Origin: Dichotomicrobium thermohalophilum
GTDB taxonomy: Bacteria; Pseudomonadota; Alphaproteobacteria; Rhizobiales; Rhodomicrobiaceae
Assembly: GCF_003550175.1 (NCBI RefSeq)
Contig: NZ_QXDF01000001.1
Coordinates: forward strand, 1,760,501-1,824,500
Direction of reading: 5' to 3'
Length of the DNA: 64,000 nucleotides
Shown here: positions 6,991-16,501 of the stretch, in pieces
Layout: each line of letters begins with the position of its first letter
Position numbering within the stretch: position 1 is the stretch's first letter
Notes under the pieces: generated by a model
What the model was told of the DNA's origin: nothing
What the model saw: only the letters and a program-made list of their open reading frames with translations
Database searches by the model: none
Translations under genes and position numbers: made by a program

Positions 6991-7398
6991 ATGACCCATC
7001 CTGTCCTCGCCGAGACGCTAGCCGAAAGCTGCCGGCAGATCCCCGACACCAAGGCCGCAGTTTGCGCGGACCTGCGTTCAGGCGACATTCTCGCAAGCCA
7101 AACCAGCGAAGAATCCGCCGGAGATGCGGCGGATCTCGCAGGCGCGGCGGCACGCGTGTTCGCAGACGCGCGACAGGATGCGCTCAACCGTCTGTGGCGG
7201 GATGCAGCGACCAGTGCGGAGGGCGGTGATGAGGTCGTCCTGCTGGAACCGCATCGGTGCTACGTGTTCCTGCGCCCTATAACGCGACCGCACTACGCGG
7301 TTGTGTTTCTGACAGGTCGCGCCGGGGATGTCGGTTTGACCATCGCGCGGGCACGCGCAGTCAAGGCCAGCTTCGAAGAGGCGTTGCGCCGGCTCTGA
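6991..7398 (+). CDS. Small Roadblock/LC7-like protein
   Basis: A 135-residue cytosolic protein. Its pattern fits the Roadblock/LC7 (MglB-like) fold: a helix, the strand pair 'AAVCADLRSGDILAS' (about residues 21-35), a central helix with 'DLAGAAARVFADARQDAL', then 'EVVLLEPHRCYVFLRPI' and 'YAVVFLTGRAGDVGLTIARARAV' leading into a last helix. Members of that family often regulate small or dynamin-like GTPases, and two GTPases follow downstream. The start at 6991 fits the domain; an in-frame ATG at 6895 would add a Cys-containing stretch that looks non-native. The assignment is by pattern and should be treated as tentative. Confidence 0.55.
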   Translation: MTHPVLAETLAESCRQIPDTKAAVCADLRSGDILASQTSEESAGDAADLAGAAARVFADARQDALNRLWRDAATSAEGGDEVVLLEPHRCYVFLRPITRPHYAVVFLTGRAGDVGLTIARARAVKASFEEALRRL

Positions 7399-7425
7399 CG
7401 CGGCTTTCACGGGAGAATGGCAGGC

Positions 7426-8250
7426 ATGAGCGCGACCGGCGGAATTGCAGCGCAGGCTGATACGGAAAAGACCCTGCCCGATGCGCGCCCGTCCGAGCGC
7501 CTTCTGTCGCTGCTGATGCTGGTGCAGCGCACGGTCCTGCCGCGCCATGTCGAGCTGAAGACCGACGACACCGCCGTCGGTCTCGATCTGGCCAGCCAAC
7601 GTCTCCAACTCGGTGTCCGCGCCGGCAACCATTTCTTTATCGACGACACGCTGGCGACTGCCGCACCGGCCGCTCACAAACTGCTTCGCCGCCGCGCCCG
7701 AGGGGTGATCCGCCATGACGAGACCTTGCGGGATCATCAGGCTGCCCTTTGCGCCTGTGCGGCCCGCGCGCTCCTGCGGTTCTGCGCCGAGGGCGAGCCG
7801 CGCTATCGCATCAATGCCGCCCCGCTGGAGGAGGCCTGGGCTGCGGCCTCTTTCTCCGTGATGGATCTCTATGAAGCCGCTCGCGAGCAGGCCATGCAGG
7901 CAGGGCGCGGGCCGGTTCGTGCCTTCTTCGACACCGTCCGGGCGAAGATGGACGAGGCTTGGCTGCTCTCCCAGGACGGCTGGATCGTCGAGGCGCCCGC
8001 AGATGCGCGTGGTCTGGCGCAATACGCCGAGGTGACCAAGACAGCGCGCCTGCTTGCCGCCTGGCGCGATGCGGCATCCGATGCCGGCACGCCCCAACTC
8101 GCCTACGCGACGAGGCCCCCGCACGACTGGATCTGGAGCATTGCCAGCGACGCGAATCACATCGCTCTACTGCGCTGTTCGCCCTTGAAATGGGCGGCGA
8201 CGCTCAGCGCGTGGAGCGACTATGCGGGCGCGTCCGACGTCGAAAGCTGA
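7426..8250 (+). CDS. Uncharacterised protein beside dynamin-like GTPases
   Basis: I do not recognise this 274-residue protein. It has no signal peptide or membrane segment and no obvious catalytic motif. It is rich in Ala, Arg and Leu, with several predicted helices, a central '[34 protein letters not shown]' type stretch (about residues 85-125), and an aromatic C-terminal part 'PHDWIWSI'. It starts about 28 bases after the Roadblock-like gene. The ATG at 7426 is placed 10 bases after GGGAG; an ATG at 7417 is nearly touching it and less likely. Co-orientation suggests a role with the neighbouring GTPases. Confidence 0.6.
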   Translation: MSATGGIAAQADTEKTLPDARPSERLLSLLMLVQRTVLPRHVELKTDDTAVGLDLASQRLQLGVRAGNHFFIDDTLATAAPAAHKLLRRRARGVIRHDETLRDHQAALCACAARALLRFCAEGEPRYRINAAPLEEAWAAASFSVMDLYEAAREQAMQAGRGPVRAFFDTVRAKMDEAWLLSQDGWIVEAPADARGLAQYAEVTKTARLLAAWRDAASDAGTPQLAYATRPPHDWIWSIASDANHIALLRCSPLKWAATLSAWSDYAGASDVES

Positions 8251-8510
8251 TCCGTCTGACGATGTGATTGCCGTTTCTGATGGCGGTGAAGCCGCGATCG
8301 GCGCGCGAAGATCGATATGTTGTGGCGCTCGGCCGCGTTCACCCAATGCGCCCAAGCCCGCCCTTGCGCAATCTTTGCCGACAAGGCACTTTGCAACCCG
8401 AACAAGAACGAAGCCCATTCAACTTCGCGCCTTGACGTTGTAACTACGCCGCGTGAGTTGACGCGCAGAAATGCGCTCCGGGCCCTCAAGGCTTTCCGGC
8501 AAAGCAAGCA

Positions 8511-10658
8511 ATGACAGCGGACACGACACCAACAGACCCGACAAGCGAATCCGGCACACACCATAGCGAAATCGGCCCTGGCAGCGTGCTCCAGCGCATG
8601 GTTGACGAGCTGCAGGACTGTGCCAGCGCGCTGGGCGCCGATCTCGAAGGGCCGCTGGCGGCGATGGCGCAGTCACTCGTGGGCGAACTGCGCGAACAGG
8701 TCTGCCGCGTCGCTGTCATTGGCCAGGTCAAGGCAGGCAAGAGCAGCTTCATCAACGCGCTCGCCGGGCGACCAACCATGCTTCCGACCGACGTCAACCC
8801 GTGGACGGCGGTCGTGACCAAAATCCATTTCGGCGAGCCCGGCGCGCAGGAAGGCGCCTATTTCGAATTCTTCACCGAGGAAGAATGGCGCCACATGATC
8901 GGCGGCGGCCGGATGCGCGAGATGGCGACCAGCCTCGCCCCGAACCTCGACAGCGAGGAGATTCATAAACAACTCTCGCAGTTCGAGCAGCGCGCCAAGC
9001 GCCGGCTCGGCGACAGCTTCCCGCAGATGCTTGGCAAGCATCACCTGTTTTCCTCGGTCACGCCGGGTGTGCTGGAACGTTACGTCACCGCTGGTGAGGA
9101 TCGCCCGGTGACCGACAGCGCGATCGACGAAAGCAACGCGCATTTCGCGGATATCACCAAGAGCGCCGACCTCTATTTTCAGGACAACCCGTTTGGCTTT
9201 CCAACGGTCGTCATCGATACGCCCGGCACGAACGATCCGTTCCTGGTGCGCGACGAGATCACGCTGCAGAACCTGGAAACGGCGGATGTCTACATCGTCG
9301 TGGTGACGGCGCAGCAGCCGCTGTCCAATACCGACCTGAACCTGTTGCGGCTGCTCCAGGGGGTGGACGCGGGCCGCGCGTTGATCTTCCTCAACCGCCT
9401 CGACATGCTGGAGAACGCGGCCGAGAACTACCAGACCGTTCTTGAGCGAGTGCGCACAATTCTGCGCAAGGAATTCTCGACCGACGACATTCCTGTCATC
9501 CCCGGCAGCGCGGCCTGGGGGCTGCGTTCGGTCACGCCTACGGGCGCCCATCGCGACGGCACGCTGGACGACGCGTTTATGGACTACGCGGCATCGCGCG
9601 GCTTTGCCGAGCGCGAGACGCTGCGCCAGGTCGCCGAGACAGAACAGGCTGCGGAGAGCGAGCTAGCAAAACTCCTCACCGACGTCTCCGGCCTCAGCGA
9701 AATCAACGCTGAACTCGCCCGCCTCATGGCCCGATCGCGCGCCGCGCAGAGGATCGCTAGCGTCGCCGGGATCGTTTCGGCGCTCACCCACAACTACGCG
9801 CTGCTCAGCCGCCATGAAGCCGAGCGTATCGAGGCGCGCGCCAAACAGGACGAGGCACAGCGCCGCGAGGACCGAAAGCAGCGGAAGGCCGCCTTCGAGA
9901 CCGCCGCAAAGGAACTCGCCGAGCGCTTCAGGACCTTCGAGCGAGACTATGCCGCGCTGGCCGCAGAAGGCACACGCAAGATCTCGGACCGCCTGAACGC
10001 GGCCGTGACCCGGCTCGCCGACGCGGAGCAGTCCGCGTTGGAGGACAAGCTGCGCGCCGGCGAGAAGCTCGACGCGCCGAGGCTTGATACCATCGGCATC
10101 CGCCACAAGCTGGCGCGCGAGTTCATCGCCGCTTTCGACGAGGTGGCCTCAGCCATGCAGGCCTTCGAGCGCGACAACCTCAAAGAGATCGACGAGATGT
10201 TTTCCGGCTCGGCGCCCGGTCTTGACGGCGCGATGACCGCCGGCCCGCTGCCCGCACCTGCGGCACGGCCGTCGCTCTCACCGCTTGCTCAGGCGATTGC
10301 GGTCGACCTGGATGAGCCGCGGCGTTTCGTCTGGCAGAGCCAGAGTGACGATCCGCGCCAGGCCGTCAAAGCGCTCCGCACCGGACTGGAGCGTGATTTC
10401 CTCACCGTCGCCCGGGAGTTGAGCGAACTGGCCAAGAAGGCCCTAAGCAGCCATGCCGCCAGCGTCACCCGGCGCTATCGCACCATCGTGCACGAGACCC
10501 TGGAGATCGTGGCGAAGCTGGTTCAAGGCGGGGCCAGCGCGGATGAGGCCAATGCCGCGCTCGAAGAAGCGCAGGCGCGCGCCGAGCGCATGGCTGCGCT
10601 GGCGGAGCGCGCGGCGGCGCTTGATGAGCGCTGCCGAGAGGCGCTGAGGAGCTCATAG
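8511..10658 (+). CDS. Dynamin-like GTPase (large)
   Basis: A 715-residue dynamin-superfamily GTPase. The P-loop is 'GQVKAGKSS' (residues 71-79); a switch-I threonine region follows in 'DVNPWTAVVTKI'. The G3 motif 'DTPGTND' is at about residue 235 and the G4 motif 'NRLD' near residue 295. After the GTPase domain comes a long, highly charged helical region (about residues 420-530, many R/E/K/A) likely to form a coiled-coil stalk, then more helices to the end. No clear transmembrane helix is visible. Bacterial relatives are membrane-remodelling or membrane-surveillance proteins; the exact role here is unknown. A second GTPase follows after 15 bases. Confidence 0.85.
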   Translation: MTADTTPTDPTSESGTHHSEIGPGSVLQRMVDELQDCASALGADLEGPLAAMAQSLVGELREQVCRVAVIGQVKAGKSSFINALAGRPTMLPTDVNPWTAVVTKIHFGEPGAQEGAYFEFFTEEEWRHMIGGGRMREMATSLAPNLDSEEIHKQLSQFEQRAKRRLGDSFPQMLGKHHLFSSVTPGVLERYVTAGEDRPVTDSAIDESNAHFADITKSADLYFQDNPFGFPTVVIDTPGTNDPFLVRDEITLQNLETADVYIVVVTAQQPLSNTDLNLLRLLQGVDAGRALIFLNRLDMLENAAENYQTVLERVRTILRKEFSTDDIPVIPGSAAWGLRSVTPTGAHRDGTLDDAFMDYAASRGFAERETLRQVAETEQAAESELAKLLTDVSGLSEINAELARLMARSRAAQRIASVAGIVSALTHNYALLSRHEAERIEARAKQDEAQRREDRKQRKAAFETAAKELAERFRTFERDYAALAAEGTRKISDRLNAAVTRLADAEQSALEDKLRAGEKLDAPRLDTIGIRHKLAREFIAAFDEVASAMQAFERDNLKEIDEMFSGSAPGLDGAMTAGPLPAPAARPSLSPLAQAIAVDLDEPRRFVWQSQSDDPRQAVKALRTGLERDFLTVARELSELAKKALSSHAASVTRRYRTIVHETLEIVAKLVQGGASADEANAALEEAQARAERMAALAERAAALDERCREALRSS

Positions 10659-10673
10659 GCAGGGACGCCCGCA

Positions 10674-12014
10674 ATGCAGGATATGGCCCAGGACCAAGAG
10701 GCCATGATGGACGACCTGGCCCAGCGGCTGCGCGAGACGCGCGCTGTCTTCGAGCAGGCATCTCAGATACCGCGCGTCGCCTCCGCGATCCGAGGTCTGC
10801 AGCGTATCGAGACCAGCCTGGGCCGCCCGCCCCGTGTCGGCATCTTTGGCGAATTCAACTCCGGGAAAACCTCGCTGACCAACATCCTGATCGGCCGCAA
10901 GGCGCTGCCCACGAGCGTGGTCACCAGCGACCGCGGCTCCACGCTGCTGCGCTACGCGGACCAGCCGGAGCTGTATGCCATCGGCGCGGAAGGGGGCAGA
11001 CACCGGCTCACCACCGCGGCCTTTCAAAAGCTCATCGCGCGCCCGGCCCTGACTGAGATCGGCGTGCCCTTCCCCAGGCTCCGGAACTACGAGATCATCG
11101 ACACCGTCGGCGTGTCGGACCCATCGCTGGGCGGACTGCCGCCGAAACGGGCGGCCAATTCCTACGTGCATGGCGCGGTGTGGTGCACGGTCGCCAGCCA
11201 GGCATGGAAACGCAGCGAAGTCAGCCAGTGGCGCACCATCCCCGAGAGCGTGCGCAAGCGCAGCCTTCTGGTCGTCACCCATCTGGATGCCGTGCCCAAC
11301 CCGCAGGACCGTGAGAAGATCGCCGAACGCATCCGCTCCGAGGCGGCCAACCTGTTCCACGGTTTCGTGATGATCTCGCTGACCCAGGCTCTGCGCGCCC
11401 TGTCACCCGAAGGCGAGATCGTCGACGAAACGGCGTGGTACAACAGCGGCGCGGCCGAGCTGGAGCACTGGTTTTCCGAGATCGTGGCGATGGCCCGGGT
11501 CGACAAGCGCCGCCGTGCAGTCGCGGCCGCCCGGGCCATTGCCCAGCGTCTCCTGTCAGCCCCGCTGCGCACCCCGCACGAAATCGCAGTGTCTCACCTG
11601 CAAGCCGCCTGGAGCAACCGGGTGCGCCGGCGGGTCCGGGATGCCGCCGGCGGCCGCGATATCGGCCAGCTCACCGTCGAACAGCATATCGAAACACTGG
11701 TGAGTGCGGCACGCGGGTTCGCGGCTTACGGGCTGGAGCCCTGGCTGCAGAAGCGCGTCAGGACGGGCACAATGCGCGACATCCTCGCACTGTTGCCGCG
11801 GGAGCCGGCACAGGTCCGCGGCGTTGTCGCCGGGATGGAACCGGCGCAGGCGCATCGCGCCCTGGCGTTGATCGTTGATCAGGTTGCGGCGGAACTGCGC
11901 GAGGCGCTCATGGAGATCACACCGGCCAAGGGCGACCGCCCCGCCGAACTACCTCGGCAAGTTGCGGAGGCTGCCAGCGCCGTCTCCGCTTGGGGCAACG
12001 AGCAGGCCGGCTGA
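10674..12014 (+). CDS. Dynamin-like GTPase (small partner)
   Basis: A 446-residue protein with a second, distinct dynamin-type GTPase domain. The P-loop is 'GEFNSGKTS' (residues 59-67), G3 is 'DTVGV' at about residue 142, and the G4 position reads 'THLD' near residue 203 rather than N/TKxD, still with the key Asp. The C-terminal half is helical. It starts 15 bases after the larger GTPase, so the two are almost certainly co-transcribed. Paired bacterial dynamin-like proteins are known to act as hetero-oligomers, which makes a two-subunit machine plausible here. Confidence 0.8.
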   Translation: MQDMAQDQEAMMDDLAQRLRETRAVFEQASQIPRVASAIRGLQRIETSLGRPPRVGIFGEFNSGKTSLTNILIGRKALPTSVVTSDRGSTLLRYADQPELYAIGAEGGRHRLTTAAFQKLIARPALTEIGVPFPRLRNYEIIDTVGVSDPSLGGLPPKRAANSYVHGAVWCTVASQAWKRSEVSQWRTIPESVRKRSLLVVTHLDAVPNPQDREKIAERIRSEAANLFHGFVMISLTQALRALSPEGEIVDETAWYNSGAAELEHWFSEIVAMARVDKRRRAVAAARAIAQRLLSAPLRTPHEIAVSHLQAAWSNRVRRRVRDAAGGRDIGQLTVEQHIETLVSAARGFAAYGLEPWLQKRVRTGTMRDILALLPREPAQVRGVVAGMEPAQAHRALALIVDQVAAELREALMEITPAKGDRPAELPRQVAEAASAVSAWGNEQAG

Positions 12015-12016
12015 GC

Positions 12017-12757
12017 CTACTCGCGTTTCAACAGCCGGTTGACCAGGAAATTCGTGAAACCTTGCGGCTTGAAGCTCCTGGCAACCTCTTTCGGCCGGTA
12101 ACGCTCATCCACCCACTGGAGAAAGTCCATCGGCGCATCCGCGGTCTGTTCGCGGTAGGTGTCCAGGAAATGATCCAGCACGCCGGTATCCGCCTGTCTG
12201 AAATGGCCGTAGCGCAGGCTGAGCTGGCGCGCGGCTTCCTCGACCGGCCGGCCCTCGCGCAGCAAGAGATACAGCGCGGACATCATGCCCGCCCGGTCCG
12301 CGCCCGACTTGCAGTGAAACAGCACAGGATACTGGATGCGCTCGAACAGGGCGCGCGCCTCGTGGATCGTCGTGGGGGACGGCACGCCGCGAGAGCGCAT
12401 CTTGAAATCGATCAACTCGACGCCGTATTTCGCGCAGGCTTGCTGCTCCAGCCGATAGCTCCCGCAATCCCGCGGACCGCGCAGATTGACAACCGTGCGC
12501 AGCCCCCGCTTGGCAAGCTTGCGGATGTCGCGCGGGCTCGGCTGCGCCGAACGCCAAACACCGGGCGCGACCTCGTGCAGGTTGAGATAGGCGAAGCGGA
12601 AAATGCCGTGGTCGACGGCCACAAGGTCGAAATGCTCAAGGAAACGCGCTAGCCGCGGCCGGTCACTGGCCGTATCCGTGCCGGTGAAGCGATTGCGGTA
12701 GCGCCGATAGCTGCTGGCGAGCAAACGCCTCTGCCGCTTAGCGAAATTCATTGCCAT
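12017..12757 (-). CDS. Protein tyrosine/dual-specificity phosphatase-like
   Basis: A 246-residue protein with the CX5R phosphatase loop 'HCKSGADRAG' (catalytic C149, R155) and an upstream 'VWRSAQPSP...LAKRGLRTVVNLRG' block (about residues 68-94) typical of alphaproteobacterial DSP-like phosphatases. The fold predicts a soluble cytoplasmic enzyme, although lipid- or polysaccharide-related substrates are possible for this family. A longer frame begins with TTG at 12841, but ATG 12757 (or 12751) fits the basic N-terminus better. It converges on the GTPase pair with only two bases between the stops; no functional link is proven. Confidence 0.8.
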   Translation of the reverse strand: MAMNFAKRQRRLLASSYRRYRNRFTGTDTASDRPRLARFLEHFDLVAVDHGIFRFAYLNLHEVAPGVWRSAQPSPRDIRKLAKRGLRTVVNLRGPRDCGSYRLEQQACAKYGVELIDFKMRSRGVPSPTTIHEARALFERIQYPVLFHCKSGADRAGMMSALYLLLREGRPVEEAARQLSLRYGHFRQADTGVLDHFLDTYREQTADAPMDFLQWVDERYRPKEVARSFKPQGFTNFLVNRLLKRE

Positions 12758-12842
12758 GTTGCGTTCTGCGCCTCGCGCACGCGTTCCTCGCCTGCGGTCC
12801 GAGGCGCCACAGCCCTCTCCTTTTGATTCTGCCACGCTCAAC

Positions 12843-14677: not shown

Positions 14678-15895
14678 ATGGGCCCCTTTGAAATCTTCGC
14701 GATTGCCGTGGCGATCGTGCTGGTCATCACGGTCGCCGCGTCTGTCGTCATCGTCCCGCAGGGCAGCAACTTCACCGTCGAGCGGCTGGGGCGCTACGTG
14801 CGCACCCTGAAGCCGGGGCTGCGCGTGGTGGTCCCCTTCGTCGAGAAGATCGGCCACCGCGTGGTGATGATGGAGCAAGTGCTGGACATTCCCACGCAGG
14901 ACGTCATCACCCGCGACAACGTCGAAGTCCAGGTCGACGCAGTCGCCTTCATGCAGGTGCTTGACGCCGCGCAGTCGGCTTACGCGGTCGCAGACTTGCG
15001 CCAGGCGATGATTACGCTGGTCCTGACCAATACGCGCACGGTCATGGGCTCCATGGAGCTGGACGAGCTTCTGTCCAACCGCGACGCCATCAATTCGCGC
15101 CTGCTGCGCATCATGGACGAAGCCACGCACCCCTGGGGCGTGAAGATCTCGCGTATCGAGATCAAGGACATCAATCCGCCAGCCGACATCACCGAGGCGA
15201 TGGCCCGCCAGATGAAGGCCGAACGCGACAAGCGCGCGGAAATCCTTGAGGCGGAAGGCGACAAGTCCGCGCGCGTCTTGCAGGCGGAAGGCTTGAAGCA
15301 ATCGCTGATCCTTGAAGCGGAGGGCCGCAAGGAAGCCGCTTTCCGGGATGCGGAAGCGCGCGAGCGCGAGGCCGAAGCCGATGCGCGGGCAACCGAGATG
15401 GTCTCGCGCGCGATTGCCGAGGGCAATGTCCAGTCGATCAACTACTTCGTCGCGAACCGCTATGTCGAGGCACTCAAGAACCTCGCCAGCGCCGAGAATT
15501 CCAAGGTGCTCATGATGCCCGTGGAGGCGGCCAGCGTGATCGGGGCAATCGGCGGCATTACCGAACTCACGCGCGAGGCCTTCGGCTCTCCCGGCGGACA
15601 ACCCCCGCCCGCGGCGCCGGACGGCGCGGATCGTGGCACGCAGCACTCGGCCCTGACGACCGACGGCCAAAACGGCAAGGGGAACGGACAGCCCTCACCG
15701 GCACAGAGCGAGCTCGCCCAGTGGGACGGCCAAGCAGATCAGGCGAACGGGCCGGCACCGGCATCTGAGAGCCATGCCGCGCCTATCGAGCAGCACGAAG
15801 CGCAGCAGCGCGAGACCGCGACAGCGTCCGAGATGTCTAACCGCGCCCAAAGCAACGGTCGCGCCGATGACGGCTCAGGCTCCGGCACGAGCTGA
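14678..15895 (+). CDS. qmcA: SPFH/band 7 protein, QmcA-like, with long tail
   Basis: A 405-residue stomatin/prohibitin-type protein. An N-terminal membrane helix (about residues 3-28) leads into the SPFH domain with 'VPQGSNFTVERLGRYVRTLKPGL' and 'PTQDVITRDNVEVQVDAVAF'. A charged coiled coil with repeated 'EAEGxK' units follows (about residues 175-250). Typical QmcA ends near residue 305; here about 100 extra residues follow, rich in Gln, Gly, Ala, Pro and Ser, and probably disordered. Its neighbour encodes an NfeD protein, the usual partner of SPFH proteins in membrane microdomain or protein quality control. Confidence 0.9.
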   Translation: MGPFEIFAIAVAIVLVITVAASVVIVPQGSNFTVERLGRYVRTLKPGLRVVVPFVEKIGHRVVMMEQVLDIPTQDVITRDNVEVQVDAVAFMQVLDAAQSAYAVADLRQAMITLVLTNTRTVMGSMELDELLSNRDAINSRLLRIMDEATHPWGVKISRIEIKDINPPADITEAMARQMKAERDKRAEILEAEGDKSARVLQAEGLKQSLILEAEGRKEAAFRDAEAREREAEADARATEMVSRAIAEGNVQSINYFVANRYVEALKNLASAENSKVLMMPVEAASVIGAIGGITELTREAFGSPGGQPPPAAPDGADRGTQHSALTTDGQNGKGNGQPSPAQSELAQWDGQADQANGPAPASESHAAPIEQHEAQQRETATASEMSNRAQSNGRADDGSGSGTS

Positions 15896-16003: not shown

Positions 16004-16501
16004 ATGGAAGGCTTTTTCGGCGAGGTGCGCGAACTCGGCGGATGGGCCTGGCTGATCTTCGGCGTGCTCCTGCTGGGGCTTGAGCTGCTGCTGCCGGGTT
16101 TCTTCCTGATCTGGTTCGGCGTCGCTGCGGCGATCGTCGGCGTGACGGTACTGGCCTTCGACATTGCTTGGGCGTGGCAACTGCTCTTGTTCGGCGGCCT
16201 GTCTGTGCTGGTACTGCTCGGTGCCGGGCGCTTCTGGGGACGCGACAGTAGTGATGCCAGCCGCTTTACCGACCGCGCCAGCCAGCTCATCGGCCAGCAA
16301 TACCGCCTGCACCACCCGATCGAGAACGGCCGCGGCGTGCTGCTGGTCGGGGATTCGCAATGGTCGGTGCGCGGGCCGGATTGTCCGCGCGGCGTGACCG
16401 TGCGCGTCGTAGGCGCGCAGGGCACCTATTTGCTCGTCGAGCCGGTAACCGACTCTTCCAACGAGGGCCTGCCGAAGGCGAGTTCTTTCGGCGACGTCTA
16501 G
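16004..16501 (+). CDS. NfeD family membrane protein
   Basis: A 165-residue short NfeD protein. Two to three hydrophobic segments lie in the first half (about residues 10-35 and 40-75), followed by a soluble OB-fold domain with 'LIGQQYRLHHPIENGRGVLLVGDSQWSVRG' and 'GVTVRVVGAQGTYLLVEPV'. NfeD proteins partner SPFH proteins, usually in neighbouring genes, as with the qmcA-like gene 108 bases upstream. The start has a GGAGGG ribosome-binding site. It lacks the N-terminal protease domain of long NfeD forms. Confidence 0.9.
   Translation: MEGFFGEVRELGGWAWLIFGVLLLGLELLLPGFFLIWFGVAAAIVGVTVLAFDIAWAWQLLLFGGLSVLVLLGAGRFWGRDSSDASRFTDRASQLIGQQYRLHHPIENGRGVLLVGDSQWSVRGPDCPRGVTVRVVGAQGTYLLVEPVTDSSNEGLPKASSFGDV

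Follow-up and report, generated by a model that had tools for sequence, protein, structure and literature searches.

Dichotomicrobium thermohalophilum, an alphaproteobacterium with a genome of 2.99 Mb (completeness 99.84%), carries in succession on one strand the genes for a Roadblock-like protein, a protein without known family and two dynamin-like GTPases (P0001 to P0004), which raises the question of whether these four genes work together. They are located in the window analysed here, that is a stretch of 64,000 nucleotides (NCBI RefSeq assembly GCF_003550175.1, contig NZ_QXDF01000001.1, positions 1,760,501 to 1,824,500 of the forward strand). To our knowledge, the regulation of bacterial dynamins is largely open, and the locus bears on whether the pairing of GTPases with Roadblock proteins reaches beyond Ras-type signalling. 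We regard it as rather probable that the four genes represent one functional unit, i.e. a heteromeric dynamin composed of P0003 and P0004 that is equipped with a dedicated Roadblock regulator. A first-pass annotation, made from the letters alone, had put forward such a module and named two outcomes that would speak against it, namely a small protein that does not fold as Roadblock and four genes that are not conserved together. The idea has survived both, because P0001 is predicted to adopt the Roadblock fold and the genes are conserved together. The genes and the domain in question are the following, P1 to P4 denoting the respective families:

6991–7398, plus strand: P0001 (P1), 135 aa, predicted stand-alone Roadblock-fold protein; the start at ATG 6991 matches homologues

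7417–8250, plus strand: P0002 (P2), 277 aa, C-terminal Roadblock domain predicted; GGGAG precedes the ATG

7903–8247, plus strand: putative C-terminal Roadblock domain of P0002, residues ~163–277, from the predicted model and fold matches

8511–10658, plus strand: P0003 (P3), 715 aa, Cj-DLP1-like dynamin-like GTPase (Dynamin_N, PDB profile match)

10674–12014, plus strand: P0004 (P4), 446 aa, Cj-DLP2-like, shorter dynamin-like GTPase (Dynamin_N, PDB match)

The annotation had described these genes as lying in close order. All four open reading frames are confirmed, but close spacing holds only within P1–P2 (18 bases) and within P3–P4 (15 bases), a gap of 260 bases separating the two halves. 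Its view of the last two genes as different dynamin-type GTPases is borne out, as Dynamin_N (Pfam) is found in both proteins: P0003 scores 62.9 bits against a cut-off of 27 (E 5e-17), and P0004 is placed barely above the cut-off with 27.2 bits (E 4.7e-6). Each has a dynamin-type G domain with G1, G3 and G4 present, the motifs being GQVKAGKS, DTPG and NRLD in P0003 and GEFNSGKT, DTVG and THLD in P0004, where THLD occupies the G4 place. Searches of the PDB with the family profiles returned 5owv_A as best match of P3 (profile A3, 9.4e-15; next 2j68_A, 5.3e-14) and 5owv_C as best match of P4 (profile A4, 1.3e-22 as compared to 1.9e-10 for 5owv_A); the single P0004 sequence likewise matched 5owv_C (E 3.7e-13). 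For P3 and P4 the best-matching stretches are confined to the G-domain region. Entry 5owv is the Campylobacter DLP1/DLP2 pair, the names DLP1 and DLP2 being given to its chains by length and by the accessible part of PMC6104087. Since the P3 profile fits 5owv_A best and the P4 profile 5owv_C, we assign the window pair to the Cj-DLP1/DLP2 type; by sequence comparison, P0003 and P0004 are an adjacent dynamin pair of this kind. The simple DxxG pattern is kept in 88 of 89 P3-type proteins and is missing from 36 of 98 P4-type proteins, a hint that the two types may have divided their tasks, although P0004 of the window itself keeps DTVG. Neither protein contains a hydrophobic stretch of transmembrane length (best 19-residue means 1.29 and 1.06). 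Within its own genome, P0003 gave one full and two partial matches (E 1.2e-4 and 4.2e-4), and P0004 matches itself alone.

The small protein had been credited with a Roadblock pattern. This is supported at the level of the fold, but not by profile matches of the single sequence: no Roadblock match was obtained for P0001 in Pfam or NCBIfam at E<=1, and the Roadblock/LC7 Pfam model matched neither P0001 nor any of the 11 aligned members at this threshold. MAPKK1_Int, which we take to be a Roadblock-type family, was matched by two of the 11 members (Pfam, best E 0.058). By contrast, an AlphaFold2 model of P0001 based on the 11-row alignment A5 (pLDDT 85.3, pTM 0.81) retrieved MglB (1j3w) as best Foldseek match with E 5.1e-7 and probability 1.00. 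Foldseek returned 90 PDB chains at E<=0.001, and the best 50 of these are all Roadblock proteins or Ragulator/Rag complexes. VIA gave a Z score of 14.6 to MglB 6hjm_E over 122 residues, profilins scoring lower at about 10.9. The order of elements, alpha-beta-beta-alpha-beta-beta-beta-alpha, is closest to MglB/LC7, with an extra helix at residues 60–73 and the final helix split in two (114–123 and 125–133); identity to Roadblock structures is about 8–22% among the matches listed. Taken together, P0001 is confidently predicted to be a Roadblock-fold protein. As no curated model matches, we claim the fold for P0001 and not membership in the Pfam Roadblock family.

P0002 had been listed as an unknown protein. 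It is indeed without Pfam family, and single-sequence profile searches (Pfam, NCBIfam, PADLOC) yielded nothing useful; however, its C terminus seems to form a Roadblock domain that had been missed, less strongly predicted than the fold of P0001. In the AlphaFold2 model (pLDDT 79.1, pTM 0.74; sequence homologues in alignment A6), the C-terminal elements follow the Roadblock order: helix 166–177, strands 180–185 and 190–192, helix 199–219, strands 227–232, 239–244 and 248–254, and helix 256–275. VIA matches span residues 162–276, the highest being MglB 6hjm_J (Z 9.0, root-mean-square deviation 3.9, 104 residues aligned) and 3l7h_B (Z 8.8), and nearly all of the best 50 are either Roadblock/LC7 proteins or Rag/Gtr GTPases matched at their Roadblock end. 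Foldseek E values range from 2.8e-4 to 5.1e-3 among the matches listed, and the N-terminal 160 residues are barely covered by fold matches. As the Z score alone is modest, the case for P0002 rests on the agreement of the matches on one domain and one fold. If this assignment is right, there would be two Roadblock proteins for each dynamin pair.

Are the four genes inherited together? Named genomes were scanned with the P3-family alignment, which gave 117 stretches encoding a relative; the best 80 were retained, and the loci were then searched with profiles. A DNA-pattern search with P0004 alone found no relatives. The four genes do co-occur in other alphaproteobacteria. In the window's own family, locus L030 (genome G007) shows P1-P2-P3-P4 in the order of the window, and in L031 (G001) P3-P4 and an extra small MglB-looking protein are followed by P2 and P1, which are encoded on the other strand. 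Outside this family, P1 adjoins the dynamin pair in Rhodobacteraceae and in one Novosphingobium metagenome-assembled genome (MAG). Among 101 genomes of relatives, own genome included, P4 was detected in six, and P1 in the own genome, G001 and G007, together with five weak matches. P1 and P2 were not seen at the remaining dynamin loci retrieved from G001, G002, G007, G008 and G095.

Linkage was quantified in 248 genomes from the family to which Actibacterium sp. 188UL27-1 (G489) belongs, using P1 profiles in genome searches that were not conditioned on gene place. P3 (A3, E<=1e-30) is present in 59 of these genomes. All 34 genomes with P1 according to A5 fall within these 59 (hypergeometric 4e-26, shared ancestry ignored), as do 52 of the 53 detected with the broader profile A7 (1e-44, with the same proviso); the P3-free genomes thus contribute 1/189, a weak match (E 4.7e-4, G589). 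Moreover, 52 of the 58 P1 places found with A7 lie within 10 kb of P3, with a median gap of 1,123 bases and a largest gap of 8,033. The other six comprise three places near contig ends (G555, G738, G518), L166, where P1 stands beside P4 with no P3, one place in G497 and the weak match in G589. A set of 89 loci was mapped (the window, L030–L040, L043–L090 minus nine duplicates, L124–L127 and L158–L191), with genes called by a simple codon-score script and clusters formed by single linkage; L091–L122 (mostly other phyla, E 1e-16 or weaker), short genome-search loci and loci fetched later stand outside these counts. P1 occurs at 47 mapped loci, 43 of which also have P3 or P4 and 41 P2. On a P3 tree of 88 rows, built by a quick method and with long branches (rows L031 and L162 hand-set to 'P1 near'), the window P3 belongs to a 38-row Hyphomicrobiales branch that is separate from the groups of Rhodobacteraceae and in which three rows have P1; the P1 label changes 10 times as compared to 29.6 in shuffles. 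Hence, the four families remain associated across distant lineages and in several arrangements of the genes. Recurrence of the gene set in many alphaproteobacteria suggests that it evolved as a dedicated control unit for bacterial dynamins.

Two further small proteins were noticed at dynamin loci. The MglB-looking protein of L031 (3210–3563), distinct from P1, has counterparts in L082 (869–1243) and L179 (4364–4717); these proteins of 117–124 aa have no Pfam Roadblock match and were called Roadblock by eye only. Another, with a membrane stretch and an end that resembles SEL1 (by eye), is encoded at 19 Hyphomicrobiales dynamin loci, e.g. L033 (4986–5705) and L034 (5695–6336). It never co-occurs with P1 (0/19 loci) and may be an alternative partner at P1-free dynamin loci.

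In Rhodobacteraceae, the module is frequently part of a larger operon. Recurrent neighbours, of which one member each was tested, are a Ser/Thr kinase (Pkinase, 1e-31), a PP2C phosphatase (4.3e-12) and an FHA-like protein; the latter cluster was identified from one weakly matching member (PF16697, 1.5e-4) and from annotated genes in the same place in Leisingera and Ruegeria records. Any of the three is present at 26 of the mapped loci, 24 of which have P1, and all three at 15, each of them with P1 (15/15). The 24 P1 loci with this kinase cassette are found among L127 and L163–L191, all Rhodobacteraceae; L204 and L205 carry it as well, and up to three dynamin-type proteins are encoded. One frequent arrangement is kinase, FHA-like, PP2C, P4-like dynamin, P3, P4, P1, P2. 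In Leisingera (NZ_CP081046.1), eight genes follow this order and overlap at four of seven junctions, P1 being a tblastn match, P2 and the first dynamin being assigned by place, and all three being annotated as 'hypothetical protein'. In Ruegeria (NZ_CP065362.1), two dynamin pairs surround P1 and the next gene, followed by kinase, FHA and PP2C. At L169, L174, L176, L178 and L183, which form one clade of the P3 tree, the cassette operon runs into mreB. The lone P1 of L126 (9544–9945, Halocynthiibacter) also adjoins the mre operon; the dynamin pairs of this organism (L088) have P2 and no adjacent P1. A second form of the module has an ABC-type ATPase beside P2 (L077 10671–11789, L080 7152–8294, L083 4734–5951). 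A weak similarity to a dual-specificity phosphatase is seen in the C-terminal part of the L083 ATPase (Tc-R-P, E 0.0038). L080 (Novosphingobium), a single case, has a separate phosphatase after the ABC gene (7.9e-19).

How could such a unit operate? Co-inheritance and the predicted folds are shown by the analyses above; that the proteins bind and regulate one another, act on membranes and come under phospho-control is our inference. P0001 and the P0002 C terminus would pair as a Roadblock heterodimer in the manner of p14/MP1, the N-terminal part of P0002 possibly serving as an anchor or sensor arm. By binding to the two dynamins, the dimer would determine when they assemble, hydrolyse GTP or come off the inner membrane, P3 being the main GTPase and P4 a structural or regulatory partner. 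This scheme is modelled by analogy on two precedents: according to the available parts of the respective reports, Roadblock proteins frequently form heteromeric complexes acting as guanine nucleotide exchange factors (GEFs) or GTPase-activating proteins (GAPs) (PMC9481161), and Cj-DLP1/2 gain GTPase activity and bind lipids upon assembly into tetramers (PMC6104087). As kinase, FHA-like protein and PP2C are wired to the module at many Rhodobacteraceae loci, phosphorylation probably determines the state of the module there. The more specific proposal, in which the P1/P2 heterodimer would be the GAP, exchange factor or assembly switch of the heteromeric dynamin and the kinase-FHA-PP2C relay of Rhodobacteraceae would toggle it, is tentative, and we put its chances somewhat below even. 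If true, the Roadblock-GTPase principle would extend from Ras-like switches to membrane-shaping dynamins. The conserved set brings two Roadblock proteins together with two or three dynamins and, in many species, with a eukaryote-like kinase/phosphatase pair, so that the regulation of dynamins can be addressed directly by experiment in roseobacters that grow in culture.

Several observations weigh against a single four-gene unit. Concerning the locus itself, the 260-base gap between P2 and P3 makes an unbroken transcript of all four genes in the window uncertain, and a scan yielded no sigma-70-like promoter site as compared to a mean of 0.6 in shuffles, and three terminator-like sites versus 4.1 expected. 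Regarding the proteins, P0001 and P0002 lack a Pfam family and are just 20–26% and 13–29% identical to their aligned relatives, respectively. For P0002, a Z score of 9.0 is modest, 7–8 being the typical best VIA score for models without clear match, and Foldseek coverage is weak (TM by query 0.2–0.3). Outside the groups named above, P1 and P2 are rare: P2 is present in 3/101 genomes of relatives (own, G001, G007) and class-wide in 2/385 (own, and a weak match, 7e-4), and P1 according to A5 in 1/289 genomes class-wide, i.e. the own one, the broader A7 having been applied elsewhere only. No window gene belongs to the kinase, FHA-like or PP2C clusters, the window harbouring the four-gene core only. 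Co-occurrence is incomplete as well, since 7/59 P3 genomes have no P1 match with A7 and 42/88 rows of the P3 tree are without P1. In G497, P1 lies 3 Mb from P3, and L124 and L126 show P1 without P3 or P4 in the 19 kb fetched. Finally, both P1 profiles were built from dynamin-adjacent P1s, which possibly biases them toward such copies.

Foremost among the alternatives is a signalling dynamin of the RdcA/RdcB kind. Here, the dynamins would represent a GTP- or phosphorylation-gated switch acting on another membrane protein, with P1 and P2 as adaptors. Precedent exists in Escherichia coli, where RdcA together with RdcB activates the diguanylate cyclase DgcE, according to the accessible text of PMC6510439, and the presence of kinase, FHA-like and PP2C genes next to the module in Rhodobacteraceae, the frequent absence of DxxG from P4-type proteins and the lack of a transmembrane-length stretch in P0003 and P0004 would all suit such a role. 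However, the best match of the pair is a tethering pair, Cj-DLP1/DLP2, and no constant client emerged among those 11 of the 45 listed neighbour clusters that were inspected. Membrane action does not require a transmembrane helix either, since a trunk-tip mutation blocks lipid binding by Cj-DLP, as stated in the part of PMC6104087 at hand. We consider a signalling dynamin unlikely.

Very unlikely, in our judgement, is a function in defence against phages or membrane damage, with dynamins that seal or sacrifice the membrane. Such a role had been suggested for this locus, and P0003 does match the PADLOC models LeoA (6.4e-14) and LeoBC (2.5e-9), P0004 matching LeoA with residues 8–82 alone (9.1e-5). 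The patchy distribution among relatives and plasmid-borne copies in Leisingera and Ruegeria point in the same direction. Yet these PADLOC models are dynamin models and the sole matches to the defence library, P0001 and P0002 matching nothing at E<=1, and the suggestion is not upheld by the genomic setting. The window copy is flanked by translation genes on one side and a ferrochelatase-like gene on the other, and mreB adjoins five copies; no nuclease-, toxin- or mobile-element-like cluster was seen among the 11 inspected of 45 listed, and 8/8 plasmids found were typed as non-mobilizable. There is also little to recommend the view that the Roadblock proteins serve another partner, be it a small Ras-like GTPase encoded elsewhere or the kinase cassette, with the dynamins as mere neighbours. 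Known bacterial Roadblock proteins act on Ras-like GTPases, according to the accessible parts of PMC4316618 and PMC9481161, and dynamin-distant P1 genes exist. Against this stand the tight linkage of P1 to P3, which holds in several gene orders, and its persistence at loci in which the kinase cassette was not detected (window, L030, L077). In addition, one Arf profile run on the own genome gave three matches, in frames of 473, 885 and 366 aa, none of them of small-GTPase size. We therefore retain a heteromeric dynamin with a Roadblock regulator, whose physiological job is most likely remodelling or repair of the envelope or membrane rather than phage defence.

What, then, belongs to the module? 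Downstream of P0004, one further gene faces the four:

12017–12841, minus strand: facing phosphatase, tyrosine/dual-specificity type (Pfam)

The first-pass annotation had left open whether it is part of the module or a bystander and had ended its stretch at 12757, inside this gene. The phosphatase was rejected as a module part. Relatives are present in 11 of 21 genomes, including 8/8 of the window's family, four of which (G003–G006) have no P4 match; in G001, G002 and G007, the relative is on a different contig from the dynamins. Six regions around phosphatase relatives contain no P1–P4 match. Three of them have an 89-aa gene, presumably usg-like, and two have hemH, one region having both and two neither. 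The phosphatase is thus a bystander, as it occurs family-wide, also in P4-free genomes, and beside usg-like or hemH genes in 4/6 regions without P1–P4. In the window, it is followed by what we take, from sequence, to be the usg-like 89-aa gene and a ferrochelatase-like gene; the other flank presumably consists of minus-strand EF-G/S7/S12-type genes. A compositional island was rejected as well, G+C being 0.63–0.69 over the module (1.5-kb steps) versus 0.60–0.66 elsewhere in the first 30 kb. Genes presumed from sequence to encode SPFH/stomatin-like (14678–15895) and NfeD-like (16004–16501) proteins lie 2.7 kb downstream of the dynamins; this proximity of membrane-domain genes to the pair is perhaps coincidental.

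The kinds of components are known. As to their combination, among the matches listed in open-access PMC (subscription literature being outside this scope), we found no description of a Roadblock protein beside a dynamin in bacteria, nor any open-access PMC record joining a bacterial dynamin with an FHA domain and a threonine kinase. Cj-DLP1/Cj-DLP2 of Campylobacter jejuni (5owv) are, like the window pair, a side-by-side DLP1-/DLP2-like pair according to the available part of PMC6104087, P0004 being shorter with 446 aa as compared to a 614-residue chain. In the case of RdcA/RdcB of E. coli (YjdA/YjcZ), the same operon similarly encodes a dynamin-like GTPase and a soluble protein (32.9 kDa) that is its dedicated partner; however, there is a single dynamin, and a Roadblock protein is not reported in the accessible text of PMC6510439. 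Ragulator/LAMTOR with the Rag GTPases likewise involves Roadblock proteins, and the Rag/Gtr C-terminal part is among the P0002 matches, but these systems are eukaryotic or archaeal and P0002 has no G-domain match in Pfam. MglB/MglC, which work with MglA in Myxococcus and Thermus, have the fold predicted for P0001 and the P0002 C terminus, whereas the GTPases neighbouring it in the window are dynamins and not of the small Ras-like MglA type; no small Ras-like GTPase is encoded beside the window Roadblock gene, the other locus genes being P0002 and the two dynamins. Finally, the actinobacterial conservons CvnA-D unite a kinase, a Roadblock protein, a protein of unknown function and a small GTPase, as described in the part of PMC4316618 at hand. 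The window, too, holds a four-gene, operon-like set with Roadblock, GTPase and unknown protein, but its GTPases are dynamins, and the kinase, seen in Rhodobacteraceae loci only, is of the Ser/Thr type and accompanied by FHA-like and PP2C proteins.

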